Below the pieces are notes generated by a model. That model made no database searches. It was not told where the DNA came from and saw nothing but the letters and a program-made list of their open reading frames with translations. A stretch of DNA of 64,000 bases. It comes from Acidobacteriota bacterium. Its GTDB lineage: Bacteria; Acidobacteriota; Thermoanaerobaculia; Multivoradales; Multivoraceae. This document shows, piece after piece, positions 3,403-37,261 of the stretch. Numbering within the stretch: the first letter of the stretch is position 1; every line of letters begins with the position of its first letter. The position numbers were made by a program, and so were the translations under genes. The stretch covers positions 104,306 through 168,305 of the forward strand of contig WTGQ01000002.1 of assembly GCA_011525365.1 (NCBI GenBank). Reading direction: 5' to 3'.

Positions 3403-4815
3403 TTGGACATCCACCTGATCGCGATCGGCGGCACCGGCATGGCGCCGCTGGCATGCCTGCTCCGGGAACTCGGGCACCAGGTGCGAGGCTCGGACGGGCC
3501 CCTCTACCCGCCGACCAGCGACATCCTGGCCGACGCGGGAATCGAGCCGCTGGTCGGCTACGACCCGGCCCACCTCGAACCGCGGCCGGACCTCGTGATC
3601 GTCGGCAACGCGGTGCCGCGGACGAACCCGGAGGCGGTGGCGACGGAAGCGCTCGGCCTGCCGCGGCTGTCGATGCCCGAAGCGCTCGACCGCTTCGTCC
3701 TCCGGGACCGCCGGCCGCTGGTCGTCGCCGGCAGTCACGGCAAGACGACGACGACGGCGATGGCGGCCTGGGTCTACTCCCGCGCCGGCGCCGATCCCGG
3801 CTACCTCATCGGCGGCGCGCCGATCGGTCTGGCCTCGGGGTTCGCCCTCGGCGGCGGCTCTCGCTTCGCGATCGAAGGCGACGAGTACAACGCCTCCTAC
3901 TTCGACCGCGGGCCGAAGTTCTGGCACTACCGGCCGGAGACCGTGATCCTGACCAGCCTGGAGCACGATCACGTCGATCTCTATCCCGACTTCGACGGGC
4001 TGGAGCGGGCCTTCCTCGGCCTCGTCGAGCGTCTGCCGCCGACGGGACTCCTGATCGCCTGCGCGGACTATTCGACGGTGGAGCGACTGCTGCCGGCGAG
4101 CCCGTGCCGGGTCGTGACCTACGGGGCCGGGGCGGGCGACATCCGGCTGGCCGGTCCGGTCGAGAGGGGTGAGCGCGGGATCTCGTTCGAGCTGGAGGAA
4201 GAGGGCCGGCGGCAGCGGGTCGACCTCGGCGTCTGGGGCGAGCACAACGCGCTGAACGCGATGGCGGTGTGGGCGGCGGCTCGCGCCGACGGACTGGAGC
4301 GGGACGCGGTGCTGGACGCGCTCGCCACCTTCCGGGGCGTCAAGCGGCGGCTCGAGGTGATCGGCGAGAAGGCGGGGGTGGTCGTCATCGACGACTTCGC
4401 CCACCATGCCTCGGAGGTCGCGGCGTCGCTTGCGGCGCTCCGGCAGCGCTTCCCCGGCCGTCGGCTGGTCGCCCTGTTCGAGCCGCGAAGCCTGAGCGCG
4501 GGCAGGCTGCAGTTCGCGGCCGACATGGCGGCGTCGCTGGCTTCGGCCGACCGCGTCTTCCTGGCGCCCGTGTTCCACCGCGAACGGCTGGGCGATGAGG
4601 GGTTCGACCCGGAGCAGGTGGCCGCGGAGATCGAACGCCTCGGCGCGGCGGCTACCGCCTGCAGTTCGAACGACGAGCTGGCCGAGACCGTGCTCGCGGA
4701 GGCTCGGCCCGGCGATGTCCTGGTCACCATGTCGTCGGGGTCGTTCGACGGCATGCCCCGTCGTCTACAGATGGCTCTCCAGAATCTGCCGGTCGGAAAG
4801 CGCGGGCAGCCTTAG
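3403..4815 (+). CDS. mpl: UDP-N-acetylmuramate:L-alanyl-gamma-D-glutamyl-meso-diaminopimelate ligase (Mur ligase family)
   Basis: IHLIAIGGTGMAPLA..., VVAGSHGKTTTTAM, EGDEYNASYFDRGPKFWHY (Mpl-like), HNALNAMA, DDFAHHASEV; TTG start. Confidence 0.93.
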   Translation: MDIHLIAIGGTGMAPLACLLRELGHQVRGSDGPLYPPTSDILADAGIEPLVGYDPAHLEPRPDLVIVGNAVPRTNPEAVATEALGLPRLSMPEALDRFVLRDRRPLVVAGSHGKTTTTAMAAWVYSRAGADPGYLIGGAPIGLASGFALGGGSRFAIEGDEYNASYFDRGPKFWHYRPETVILTSLEHDHVDLYPDFDGLERAFLGLVERLPPTGLLIACADYSTVERLLPASPCRVVTYGAGAGDIRLAGPVERGERGISFELEEEGRRQRVDLGVWGEHNALNAMAVWAAARADGLERDAVLDALATFRGVKRRLEVIGEKAGVVVIDDFAHHASEVAASLAALRQRFPGRRLVALFEPRSLSAGRLQFAADMAASLASADRVFLAPVFHRERLGDEGFDPEQVAAEIERLGAAATACSSNDELAETVLAEARPGDVLVTMSSGSFDGMPRRLQMALQNLPVGKRGQP

Positions 4816-5646
4816 CGCCTCGGCGCCACCCGCGGGCACGACACGGCGCGGCGCCAGCCCGACGAGTTCCGTCTCGACGACGCGCACACCAACCGCGGCA
4901 GCCAGTTCGTCGGCTCTCCGGACGACGTCAAGCAGCGACGTCCGGTCGCAGTCGGTCAGGTTCACGCTGACCTGGGCCCGCCCGCGACTCTCCAGGAAGA
5001 ACCCCAGGGCGCGCACGCCCGGCAAACCGCCGCCGGACTCGCGCAGCGACGCCGCGATCCGTTTCGCCGCGTCGAGCTCGTCGGTGTCGAGCAGCAGGTT
5101 GAAGGCAACGAGCGGCGCCCGCGCCCCGACGCAGACGACACCGCCTGTCGGGTGCGGCCGGCGCGGGCCGCGGTCGGGTAGCCACGCACCGCTCACCATC
5201 CGTTCGCCGAGCCGCGCGAGACCGCCGCGGCGATGGTCGGCAAGGGCGGCGCGCCCTGGATCGGAGGCGGCCTCGCCGTAGAGGAACACCGGCAGATCGA
5301 GCGCGGCGAGCGCGTCCGCGGCGCGCAGCGCGGCGTCGACCGCCGCGGGCATCTGCTCGGTCTCCAGGGACACGAATGGCACGACGTCGAGGGCACCGAG
5401 AAACGGGTGCACGCCTGAGTGCCCGACCACGTCGATGCGCTCGATCGCTACCGCCGCCAACGCCGTCACAGCCCGCACCAGATCGCCGCCCGCGCCCAGC
5501 AACGTCAGCACCGTTCGGTTGTGGTCCGGGTCCGAAGACACGTCGAGCACCCGCACGCCGCGCGTCGAAGCCGCCTCCACGCAGGCGTCGATGACGTCGC
5601 GACGCCGCCCCTCGCTGATGTTCGGAACGCACTCCAGCCGGACCAT
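4765..5646 (-). CDS. glutamate formimidoyltransferase
   Basis: MVRLECVPNISEGRR, DVSSDPDHNRTVLTLLG, HPFLGALDVVPFV, ARAPLVAFNLLLDT. Confidence 0.9.
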   Translation of the reverse strand: MVRLECVPNISEGRRRDVIDACVEAASTRGVRVLDVSSDPDHNRTVLTLLGAGGDLVRAVTALAAVAIERIDVVGHSGVHPFLGALDVVPFVSLETEQMPAAVDAALRAADALAALDLPVFLYGEAASDPGRAALADHRRGGLARLGERMVSGAWLPDRGPRRPHPTGGVVCVGARAPLVAFNLLLDTDELDAAKRIAASLRESGGGLPGVRALGFFLESRGRAQVSVNLTDCDRTSLLDVVRRADELAAAVGVRVVETELVGLAPRRVVPAGGAEALRLPALSDRQILESHL

Positions 5647-33261: not shown

Positions 33262-34395
33262 CTAGCGCGGCGCGGAGAGCCGAACTTCGGTCTCGGTTTC
33301 CTCTTCGCCGCGGAGCAGGCTCACGGTGACCGAGTCGCCCGGCTGCTGCCGTTCAAGCAGTGCCCGGATGTCGCTGACCGACTGGACCGGTTGGCCTTCG
33401 ATCGCGGTGATCACGTCGCCGAGGACGATGCCCTGGCGGGTGCGTCGGGTGGGGCGCAGGCCCGCGCGGTCGGCCCCGGAGTTGCGGACGACCTCCAGGA
33501 CCAGCACACCGTCCACCTGCGGCCGCACCCGGGCGCCCTCCACCAGGGTGACGCCCAGTTGCGGGCGGTTCACTCGCCCGTGCGCGACCAGCTCCGGCAC
33601 AACCCAGTTCACCGTGTCGACCGGAATCGCGAAGCCGATGCCGGCCCAGGCGCCGCCGGACGAGACGATCTGCGTGTTCACGCCGATCAGCCGGCCGCTC
33701 GAGTCGAGGAGCGGACCGCCGGAGTTGCCCGGGTTGATCGCGGCGTCGGTCTGGATGACCCCCTGTAGCTCGCGTCCGCCGACCGACTGGACTTCCCGGT
33801 CGAGGGCGCTGATCACGCCGGTCGTCAGGGTGTAGTCGAGACCGAAGGGGTTGCCGATCGCCAGAACGGATTGCCCGACCTGCAGGTCGCTCGACGAGCC
33901 GACCGGGATCGGCCGCAGCTCCTGGGCGGGCGCCTCGATTCGGAGCACGGCGAGGTCCATCTCCGGGTCTTGTCCGACGAACGTGGCGGGCCAGGTCGTC
34001 TGGTCGTGGAGGGTGACCTGGTAGGTGTCGGCATTCCGGATCACATGGAAGTTCGTGACGACGTGGCCCTTGTCGTCCCACAGGAAGCCGCTGCCGGTAC
34101 CGTCCTGAACGCGGTCGAAGCGACGTCCGAGAAAGCTGACCCGCTGCTCGCGCTGCGTCGTGATGTAGACGACCGACGGCTGCGTCTCGCGAAACAGGTT
34201 GACCGTTGCGCGCTCTTCGGGGAGCAGCCCCGAACTCGGCGTCACCCGCCGCGGCTCGCCCTGGCCTTCCGCCTGAAGCACGTTGCCCTGCCAGCGCGAG
34301 CCCAGCAGGAAGGCGAGCCCGGCGAGCACGAGCAGGCCCGCCGTGGCGGCGATTCGCGGCCGTTCGGTGGGGCCGTTTGAAGGTGCGCGGAGCAT
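33262..34395 (-). CDS. HtrA/DegP-like serine protease with PDZ domain
   Basis: VVTNFHVIRNAD, MDLAVLRIE, TDAAINPGNSGGPLLDSSGRLIGVNTQI; C-terminal PDZ. Confidence 0.93.
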   Translation of the reverse strand: MLRAPSNGPTERPRIAATAGLLVLAGLAFLLGSRWQGNVLQAEGQGEPRRVTPSSGLLPEERATVNLFRETQPSVVYITTQREQRVSFLGRRFDRVQDGTGSGFLWDDKGHVVTNFHVIRNADTYQVTLHDQTTWPATFVGQDPEMDLAVLRIEAPAQELRPIPVGSSSDLQVGQSVLAIGNPFGLDYTLTTGVISALDREVQSVGGRELQGVIQTDAAINPGNSGGPLLDSSGRLIGVNTQIVSSGGAWAGIGFAIPVDTVNWVVPELVAHGRVNRPQLGVTLVEGARVRPQVDGVLVLEVVRNSGADRAGLRPTRRTRQGIVLGDVITAIEGQPVQSVSDIRALLERQQPGDSVTVSLLRGEEETETEVRLSAPR

Positions 34396-34449
34396 CGGCC
34401 AAAACTAACAGGCGGCAAGTGGGAGTTGTTCCGGAGCTACACTCGACGC

Positions 34450-35553
34450 ATGATCCTCACAGACAGGAACGTGTCCAGAACGGAGTTCGAGGCCGGCACG
34501 GGCTGGGCCCTCAAACCGGAGGGCGCCTGCAAGGGCGCGGCCTGCGTGCCTCTCTTCGACCGTGCCCCGGCGTCGTCGGGCCCGATCGACGGGCTTGCCG
34601 TGGCCGAGGCCATCGGTCTGCCGGTCGTACACGACGAGGAGCACGGTGTGTGGGCGGTGGGCCCCGAGTCGATCGGCTCGCGAGCGCTCGTGTCCGCCGA
34701 GGACGCCGAGTTCGAACTGCCCGATCTCGACGGGAAGCCGTTCCGGCTCTCGAGCCTGCGCGGGCGGAAGGTCGTCGTCTACGCCTGGGCGCCCTACTGA
34801 GGGTGCTCGGCTCACCTGCCCGGGTGGCAGGCGCTGCGCGACGAGCTTCATCCGCGGGGCTTCGAACTGGTCACGGTCGGTCTCGACACGTTGGGGGCCG
34901 AGGGCTGCCGCCCGTTCATCGAGGCCGCTAGCCCCAAGCACCCCTCGCTGGTCGACCGTCACCACCTGCTGGCCAGGGTCTTCGGCGTGATCAACATCCC
35001 CAGTTCGGTCTGGCTCGACGAGTCGGGCACGATCGTACGGCCTGCGGAGAACGCGCCGGCGCCGCCGACGGGCGACGCGCCGAAGCTGGGGTCTCGCTCC
35101 CCCATTCCCGGTCGCTTCGGTGAGATGCTGGAGGAGGCGGCGAAGATCCCGGCCGACACCGACGACTACCACCTTGCGCTGCGCGATTGGGTTGAGAAGG
35201 GTGCCGAGAGTCGATTCGCGCTTTCGCCGGACGAAGTGATCGAACGATCGCGGCCGCGCGACGCGAACGTGTCCCTCGGCCACGCCCACTTCGAACTCGC
35301 TTCGCACCTGGAGCTCGAGGGTCACCACGACGCGGCGGTCCGCCACTTCCGCGAGGCGCACCGCCTGGTTCCCGACAGTTGGTCCTTCCGCCGCCAGGCC
35401 TGGTCGCTCGAAGGAGGCGCCGAGGGTCCATTCGCGCGCTTCTGGCAGGGCCCGAGCGAAGCGGACCCCGAGGCATGGCCCTACGAGGGCGATTGGCTCA
35501 GCGACATTCGGGAGGAGGGGCCGGAGAACTACGCCGAGCGCTTCGAGCCCTGA
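34450..35553 (+). CDS. Candidate selenoprotein: thioredoxin/redoxin (ResA-like) protein with in-frame TGA at 34798-34800 read as Sec, C-terminal TPR-like region
   Basis: ORFs 34426..34800 and 34891..35553 are in the same frame; reading through TGA gives KVVVYAWAPY-U-GCSAHLPGWQALRDELHPRGFELVTVGLDTLGAEGC with U at the WAxxC redox-Cys position; perfect CCTGCC-cgggt-GGCAGG hairpin at 34815-34831. Confidence 0.85.
34815..34831 (+). promoter_or_regulatory. Candidate bacterial SECIS hairpin
   Basis: CCTGCC cgggt GGCAGG, 14 nt after the TGA, G-containing apical loop. Confidence 0.6.
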
Positions 35554-35638: not shown

Positions 35639-37261
35639 ATGCAAGTCGAGGCGGACTCCAGGCTCATCGCGGCGTTGGAGCGTCGCCGCCGCCAGTGGCG
35701 CGACCTCGATGGCACTGCCCGCCTGTGGTCCCGCGACGCCTCGCTCTGGAGCGATTCGGGTGAGGAGGACTGGCTCGGCTGGCTCGATGTCGAACGCCTG
35801 GGCCACCTGGCGCTCCTCGACGTCGCCGGCAAGCGTCTCGCGAAACGGGCATCTGCGCTCGTCGAGCATCTCGCCGGACCGCCGTTCGAGCGGTGCCTTC
35901 TCCTCGGCATGGGCGGCTCGGCGCTGGGCGCGGACCTGCTGTGGCGGGCGCTGCCTCGCCAGGTCGACGCGGAGTTCATCTGCCTCGACACGACGGACCC
36001 TCGCGAGATCGCCTGCGCGCTCGACGGAGTCGATCCGTCGGCGCTGCGGGTCATAGCGGCGTCGAAGTCGGGCGGTACTCTCGAAACCCGGCTGGCGTTC
36101 GAACTGCTGCTAGACCGGCTGGGTGATGCGGCTTTGGTCTCCGCACTGGCGATCACCGATCGAGGCTCAGCGCTGGAAAGGCGAGCGCGGACTGCCGGAA
36201 CCCCGGTCGTCTTCGGCCAGCCTGACGTCGGCGGCCGGTTCTCCGTTCTCTCCGCGTTCGGTCTGGCTCCGGCCGCGCTCGCCGGGATCGATGTCGAGCC
36301 GCTGGTTCTGAGCGCGCGGCAAATGGCCACCGGGTGCCGCCTGTCGGACGATGGTGAAGAGACGAACCCGGGAGTCGAACTGGGCCTGCTGCTCGCCGCT
36401 GCGCACGACTGCGGCCGCGACAAGCTCTACCTCCATGCGCCGGACGGCTGCGCGGAGATGGTCGCCTGGGTCGAGCAGCTCCTCGCCGAGTCGCTCGGCA
36501 AGGGCGGCGTGCTGCTGCTGCCCGTCACGGCGGCGGGCTTGCCGGCGGAGTCAGCGCCTGACCGACTCGACATCGCATTGGGCAGCGGCGCGAGTGCCGG
36601 TGTGCCCGCGGGAGCGCCACTCGCGCATATCGAGGCGGACCTTCCCTCGGAGCTCGGCGGCGAGTTCTTCCGCTGGCAGTTCGCCACGGCAGTTGCCGGC
36701 GCACTGCTGGGCGTCAACCCCTTCGACCAGCCGGACGTGGAGTCGTCCAAGGTCGTCACCCGGAACTACGTGGAGCGGATGAAGGCCGGCGATGCTGGAA
36801 CGCCCGTCGGCGTGGTCCGGCTGAGCGAGGTCAGCGAGCTTGGGCTGGCCCAGCTCCTGGGCACCCACCTCGCGACGTTTCCAGACCGTGGCTACGCCGC
36901 CATTTCGGCATACCTCGACCGCAGCCGCCGCAACTGCGAGCTGCTCGACACGCTGCGGCGCAGCGTCGCCGGGCGCACCGGCGGCGCGTCCGTGCTCGGC
37001 TTCGGCCCCAGCTTCCTCCACTCCACGGGCCAGGCCCACAAGGGCGGCCCCAACTGCGGCCTGTTCCTGCAGATCACCGCCGACCCGCCGGCCGCCGACC
37101 TCCCGGTGCCGGGCGAAGACCTGACTTTCGGCCAGGTCCAGCTCGCCCAGGCTTGGGGCGACTACGAGGTGCTGGTCGAGCGGGACCGGCGGGTGCTGGC
37201 CGTACACATCGACGGTGCTGTCGAAGCGGGGCTACGGCGCTTGGTCGAGGCGGTCGGCTAG
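35639..37261 (+). CDS. pgi: Glucose-6-phosphate isomerase (resembling the PGI half of transaldolase/PGI fusions)
   Basis: CLLLGMGGSALGADLLWRAL, VIAASKSGGTLETRLAFELLL, GGRFSVLSAFGLAPAALAGID. Confidence 0.85.
   Translation: MQVEADSRLIAALERRRRQWRDLDGTARLWSRDASLWSDSGEEDWLGWLDVERLGHLALLDVAGKRLAKRASALVEHLAGPPFERCLLLGMGGSALGADLLWRALPRQVDAEFICLDTTDPREIACALDGVDPSALRVIAASKSGGTLETRLAFELLLDRLGDAALVSALAITDRGSALERRARTAGTPVVFGQPDVGGRFSVLSAFGLAPAALAGIDVEPLVLSARQMATGCRLSDDGEETNPGVELGLLLAAAHDCGRDKLYLHAPDGCAEMVAWVEQLLAESLGKGGVLLLPVTAAGLPAESAPDRLDIALGSGASAGVPAGAPLAHIEADLPSELGGEFFRWQFATAVAGALLGVNPFDQPDVESSKVVTRNYVERMKAGDAGTPVGVVRLSEVSELGLAQLLGTHLATFPDRGYAAISAYLDRSRRNCELLDTLRRSVAGRTGGASVLGFGPSFLHSTGQAHKGGPNCGLFLQITADPPAADLPVPGEDLTFGQVQLAQAWGDYEVLVERDRRVLAVHIDGAVEAGLRRLVEAVG

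Follow-up and report, generated by a model that had tools for sequence, protein, structure and literature searches.

The question raised by this locus, which lies in a 64,000-nucleotide stretch of DNA from an Acidobacteriota bacterium (hereafter the window), is whether an in-frame TGA at 34798-34800 ends a short gene or is read through as selenocysteine (Sec) at the active site of a longer redox protein. We consider it almost certain that the gene encodes a true selenoprotein, a member of family NF041054, in which Sec would be inserted at the UGA by means of tRNA-Sec, SelB and an mRNA hairpin, giving a three-domain and probably cytosolic oxidoreductase. The features on which this reading is built are as follows:

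34450..35553, + strand: predicted selenoprotein gene, 367 codons plus stop, with the read-through TGA as codon 117 and a match to the NF041054 profile
34450..34683, + strand: N-terminal domain (residues 1-78) with Cys27-x4-Cys32
34684..35064, + strand: thioredoxin/ResA-like redox domain (about residues 79-205), with a conserved Pro184 in NIP
34798..34800, + strand: in-frame TGA, predicted Sec117 of the WAPY-U-G-C motif
34804..34806, + strand: codon of Cys119, the invariant partner in UxC
34815..34831, + strand: SECIS-like mRNA hairpin, with a 6-bp stem CCTGCC/GGCAGG, a 5-nt loop CGGGT and an invariant G at loop position 2
35107..35550, + strand: C-terminal helical TPR-like domain (about residues 220-367), from Pfam and the structure model

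Reading frame, domains and probable function

Two open reading frames of the forward strand, 34426..34800 and 34891..35553, lie in the same frame and, as a preliminary description of this DNA had claimed, are parted only by the TGA at 34798-34800, no other stop intervening from the ATG at 34450 up to the final TGA (35551-35553). Read-through yields a product of 367 aa, residue 117 being U (VVVYAWAPY-U-GCSAHLPGWQ), which matches the NCBIfam profile NF041054 with 489.2 bits and E 8e-147, residues 1-366 being aligned to positions 1-353 of the 354 in the profile; a whole-genome profile search gave a score of 482 bits for NF041054, whose curated cut-off is 300 bits. Because the alignment runs from residue 1 to 366 against profile positions 1-353, it supports ATG 34450 as the likely gene start, and not TTG 34426, which stems from ORF calling. 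The TTG at 34891 that opens the second ORF is an internal artefact of ORF calling, which bears out the earlier suspicion that the caller had truncated the gene and begun its second half internally.

NF041054 carries the name WAxxUGC_long and the description 'ResA-like WAxxUGC motif-containing protein', and the naming motif is found here as WAPYUGC with a TGA-encoded U. Judged by its profile match, the predicted gene product is a member of this family, from which nothing material sets it apart; the 'WAxxUG...LPxWQ' selenoprotein type mentioned in the preliminary description proved to be the same one.

The AlphaFold2 model has a mean pLDDT of 91.1 and a pTM of 0.91. Its central domain found ResA as the best Foldseek match (E 1.9e-10, TM normalised to the target 0.75), and TlpA/ResA chains were also the closest in the sequence comparison with structures. 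Alignment to ResA/TlpA places Sec117 at the first, attacking Cys, with the second Cys one residue nearer, leaving the UxC arrangement that had been proposed. Pfam searches returned AhpC-TSA (E 1e-12) and Redoxin domains, a sub-threshold GSHPx match and weak TPR repeats, and no family for the N-terminal domain (residues 1-78). No signal peptide or membrane anchor was evident when the translation was inspected by eye, the N-terminus being polar and without a hydrophobic segment, and on this ground, by inspection only, a cytosolic location is probable, in contrast to ResA and TlpA.

From this we infer a selenol/thiol oxidoreductase using Sec117 and Cys119. The Sec117 selenolate, located where the first thioredoxin helix begins, would act as the nucleophile and attack a disulfide or peroxide substrate, Cys119 would resolve the intermediate to a selenenylsulfide (UxC, not UxxC), and either Cys27/Cys32 or an external thiol would then reduce it. 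The invariant Cys27/Cys32 pair may relay electrons or bind metal, and partner binding is the probable task of the TPR-like tail; the catalytic roles proposed for Cys119 and Cys27/32 are drawn from conservation only.

The alternative that survives best concerns function only and is compatible with the selenoprotein reading, namely that the enzyme is mainly a peroxidase of the peroxiredoxin or glutathione-peroxidase-like kind, as might be suggested by the AhpC-TSA, Redoxin and sub-threshold GSHPx matches and by a superficial resemblance of UG-C-S to U-G-x-T, the motif of glutathione peroxidases (GPx). The corresponding peroxiredoxin motif is PxxxTxxC, and PxxxTxxC(U) is absent here, A-W-A-P-Y-U having no Thr at -3; moreover, the closest solved structures by both sequence and fold are those of ResA/TlpA, and the presence of another invariant Cys at position +2 agrees with chemistry of the dithiol type. 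On the grounds of the missing PxxxT and of the closeness of the fold to ResA, a disulfide oxidoreductase is favoured, and a mainly peroxidatic role appears possible but rather unlikely.

A more specific version of the oxidoreductase reading, offered tentatively and slightly more doubtful still, is that of a mobile and self-contained cytosolic selenoenzyme, in which the Cys27-x4-Cys32 module would reduce Sec117-Cys119 within one chain and the TPR-like tail would dock a partner. No description of such a single-chain architecture with a TPR-like docking tail was found in the literature searched.

Conservation across the TGA codon

The homologue alignment comprised 60 distinct sequences from Acidobacteriota, Pseudomonadota, Actinomycetota and Chloroflexota. 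Residue 117 is U (TGA) in 59 of them and Cys in the remaining one, which is the U/C column that the preliminary description had proposed to look for; Cys119 is invariant (60/60), as are Cys27 and Cys32 in the 59 rows that cover them. The natural Cys variant (L034, with WASWCGC) comes from an acidobacterial genome, G183, that still has tRNA-Sec, and loss of tRNA-Sec from this genome was therefore rejected. That Cys occurs in L034 in spite of this tRNA-Sec indicates that Sec is not strictly needed.

Among 17 near relatives dN/dS was 0.188 before the TGA and 0.118 after it, so that, at the level of sequence, both halves of the frame are translated and constrained by purifying selection. Over the entire gene synonymous differences stood at 0.30, but in codons 118-135 they dropped to 0.12, which fits an RNA element overlapping that stretch. 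With a full-length match at E = 8e-147, the TGA retained in 59/60 and the low downstream dN/dS, the apparent continuity of the frame lies far beyond chance, and a sequencing error at the TGA seems implausible because the codon recurs in 12 of the 14 sampled genomes of the genus.

It could be argued that the locus encodes two proteins, a truncated N-terminal one of 116 residues and a downstream one made from an internal start, for which the mechanical ORF list offers the TTG at 34891. Such a split would, however, cut the thioredoxin fold within its active site, across which both the profile match and the structure model run unbroken, and would leave the hairpin and the tRNA-Sec/selB linkage described below unexplained; we regard it as very improbable. 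Still less credence is given to a nonsense mutation or pseudogene, in which the TGA would be a recent stop and the remainder would be decaying: the frame is indeed split by a stop codon, but the TGA is kept in 59/60 across four phyla, dN/dS downstream is below the upstream value and the frame has no other stop. This reading can be considered already refuted by conservation across phyla, in line with the earlier argument that the fold continues on both sides of the codon. Decoding of the TGA at 34798-34800 as selenocysteine, at a thioredoxin-like active site, is thus predicted as very probable.

SECIS-like hairpin and selenocysteine machinery

Bacterial SECIS elements are known as hairpins placed just 3' of the UGA and in frame. 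RNAalifold, applied to three homologue groups, folded 34815-34831 each time into a stem of 6 bp with 5 nt in the loop, the stem beginning 14 nt and the loop 20 nt beyond the UGA. Standard pairs occupy 272 of the 282 pair cells (47 distinct sequences), above every one of 2000 trials of synonymous shuffling within columns (265.5 +/- 1.3 pair cells, maximum 270), a test that takes no account of shared ancestry, and the hairpin ranks best among 295 candidate 6-bp hairpins in the stretch. The two outer stem pairs show changes on both sides, from C-G to T-A. An Rfam search of the window returned no SECIS match; the hairpin, by its comparative pairing, nevertheless fits the bacterial pattern as a putative SECIS-like element.

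The window's genome (4.22 Mb in 3 contigs, 98% complete) contains tRNA-Sec with anticodon UCA and has selA, selB and selD each over the profile cut-off, so the selA/selB/selC/selD set is complete. Both the hairpin at its expected place and the sel genes, selC being the tRNA-Sec, had been named in the preliminary description as things to be sought. The selD (L018, G000:C1:2991853-2992794) makes up the C-terminal portion of a fused frame some 850 residues long, whose N-terminal portion is an NAD(P)H-dehydrogenase-like domain (named by inspection), and the active-site region of this SelD reads CGGCAAK, the Cys form.

With this machinery the ribosome would read UGA 34798-34800 as selenocysteine by means of tRNA-Sec and SelB, the hairpin downstream directing the insertion, and in the event of failing Sec delivery it would halt at the UGA and release an inactive 116-residue fragment. 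Recoding of the UGA as some other amino acid, through a reassigned code or natural suppression, would involve the same read-through but is extremely improbable, given that the gene's own terminal codon is TGA, so that TGA also acts as a stop, that the alternative residue in homologues is Cys, and that the Sec machinery is complete and accompanied by a SECIS-like hairpin.

Other selenoproteins of the genome were sought via the AhpC-TSA and molybdopterin oxidoreductase families only, and three more AhpC-TSA/redoxin genes, each interrupted once by an in-frame TGA, at its redox motif, were found outside the window:

G000:C1:93690-94112: redoxin gene L166
C1:1614237-1614677: redoxin gene L167
C1:1754887-1755264: redoxin gene L168

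The redox motifs of this set are SAVWUPYC, RGGWUPYC and TAGUTM, and the three are probable selenoproteins of the known UxxC and TxxU types; since the genome holds them, its Sec trait is independent of the NF041054 gene. Further in-frame TGAs between two coding-like stretches occur within the window at 1722 (+) and 53318 (-), and these are probably normal stops before the start of the next gene, because an ATG follows each within about 12 nt.

Distribution of the gene and comparison with known systems

The gene is present in 12 of the 14 sampled congeners, and in the two that do not carry it (G176 and G334, loci L142 and L141) the flanks lie about 0.2 kb apart, compared with about 1.26 kb, constituting an empty site between two neighbours:

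33262..34395, - strand: trypsin-like/PDZ protease frame, HtrA-like by inspection, the conserved flank of the empty site
35639..37261, + strand: glucose-6-phosphate isomerase-like gene (pgi-like), by inspection, the other flank

As both of these congeners keep tRNA-Sec, the gene is dispensable, and its loss through loss of Sec was rejected. No high-scoring tRNA-Sec was found in G302, a congener that carries the gene, possibly owing to an assembly gap; outside the genus, tRNA-Sec scored over the cut-off in all checked homologue-bearing Acidobacteriota genomes, including G183.

On a Burkholderiales contig (L077, 2845-6098) a selB homologue, 46% identical over 379 aa to the SelB of the window's genome, is followed on one strand by tRNA-Sec (4807-4900) and the NF041054 gene (from 5001), an arrangement that may represent a compact mobile selenoprotein cassette. 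Except for this selB-selC case, flanking ORFs differ across phyla, and no pathway could be assigned from the neighbourhood. The distribution of the gene is patchy. In the tree the genus clade branches amid sequences from Pseudomonadota, a long way from the remaining copies in Acidobacteriota, and the label Acidobacteriota requires at least 3 changes on supported branches; the simplest reading is that the gene probably spread laterally, with long branches leaving the deep tree unsure. Among the metagenome-assembled genomes, some organism labels (Klebsiella, Bordetella) are probably wrong. No relative was found in the viral contigs searched, and plasmid records gave only distant TlpA-type matches and a C-terminal relic in Rhodococcus, with no sign of plasmid carriage. 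The latter (L140, plasmid NZ_CP063236.1, 148812-149093) is an orphan stretch, 45% similar to the C-terminal domain only, which is annotated as a short hypothetical protein and looks like a relic. In a separate TGA-bearing match, L049 in G319, no clear protein was resolved.

Starting from raw sequence, the analysis bears out that a gene cut in two by routine ORF calling is a real selenoprotein gene, of a functionally uncharacterised family. Purifying selection across the TGA, a covarying hairpin and selB-selC linkage were not found reported for NF041054 in the literature searched. A tractable entry point to the family exists in the invariant combination of Cys-x4-Cys with UxC, together with a single natural Cys variant and species without the gene.

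With regard to published relatives, a literature search on the name 'WAxxUGC' gave no match. The families of selenoproteins reported in 2008 from Global Ocean Sampling data include 'Prx-like (UGC-containing)' (PMC2398784), a 'UGC-containing Prx-like protein' is listed again in Table 1 of PMC9312934, and a 'UGC-containing TlpA disulfide reductase family protein' was tabulated in 2026 (PMC13188914). These published selenoproteins share with the present one the U-G-C motif, a pfam00578/cd02966 domain and the prediction of Sec from metagenomes, and the UGC-type family (representatives MBL6689828.1 and MDE0950781.1) is likely the same as NF041054, judged by agreement of motif and domain only. The proposal of an unannotated selenoprotein therefore holds as regards the selenoprotein but not its novelty: the type is already named in NCBIfam and described among UGC-type families, and the locus adds a new member rather than a new kind of system.

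The redoxins L166-L168 have in common with the NF041054 protein an in-frame TGA in an AhpC-TSA domain, and differ in their motifs, UxxC or TxxU, and in carrying in-frame N-terminal extensions that resemble signal peptides on inspection. ResA, TlpA and DsbE (PDB 1st9, 2f9s, 1jfu) resemble it in thioredoxin-domain sequence and fold, in the WA before the redox motif and in the conserved Pro, whereas their active site is CxxC and that of the NF041054 protein is UGC (UxC), one residue shorter. The initial description as thioredoxin/ResA-like is accordingly correct for the fold, although the protein is not simply a ResA or TlpA, lacking CxxC and any evident signal or anchor and possessing two domains that ResA, TlpA and DsbE do not have, the N-terminal one with Cys-x4-Cys and the C-terminal TPR-like one.
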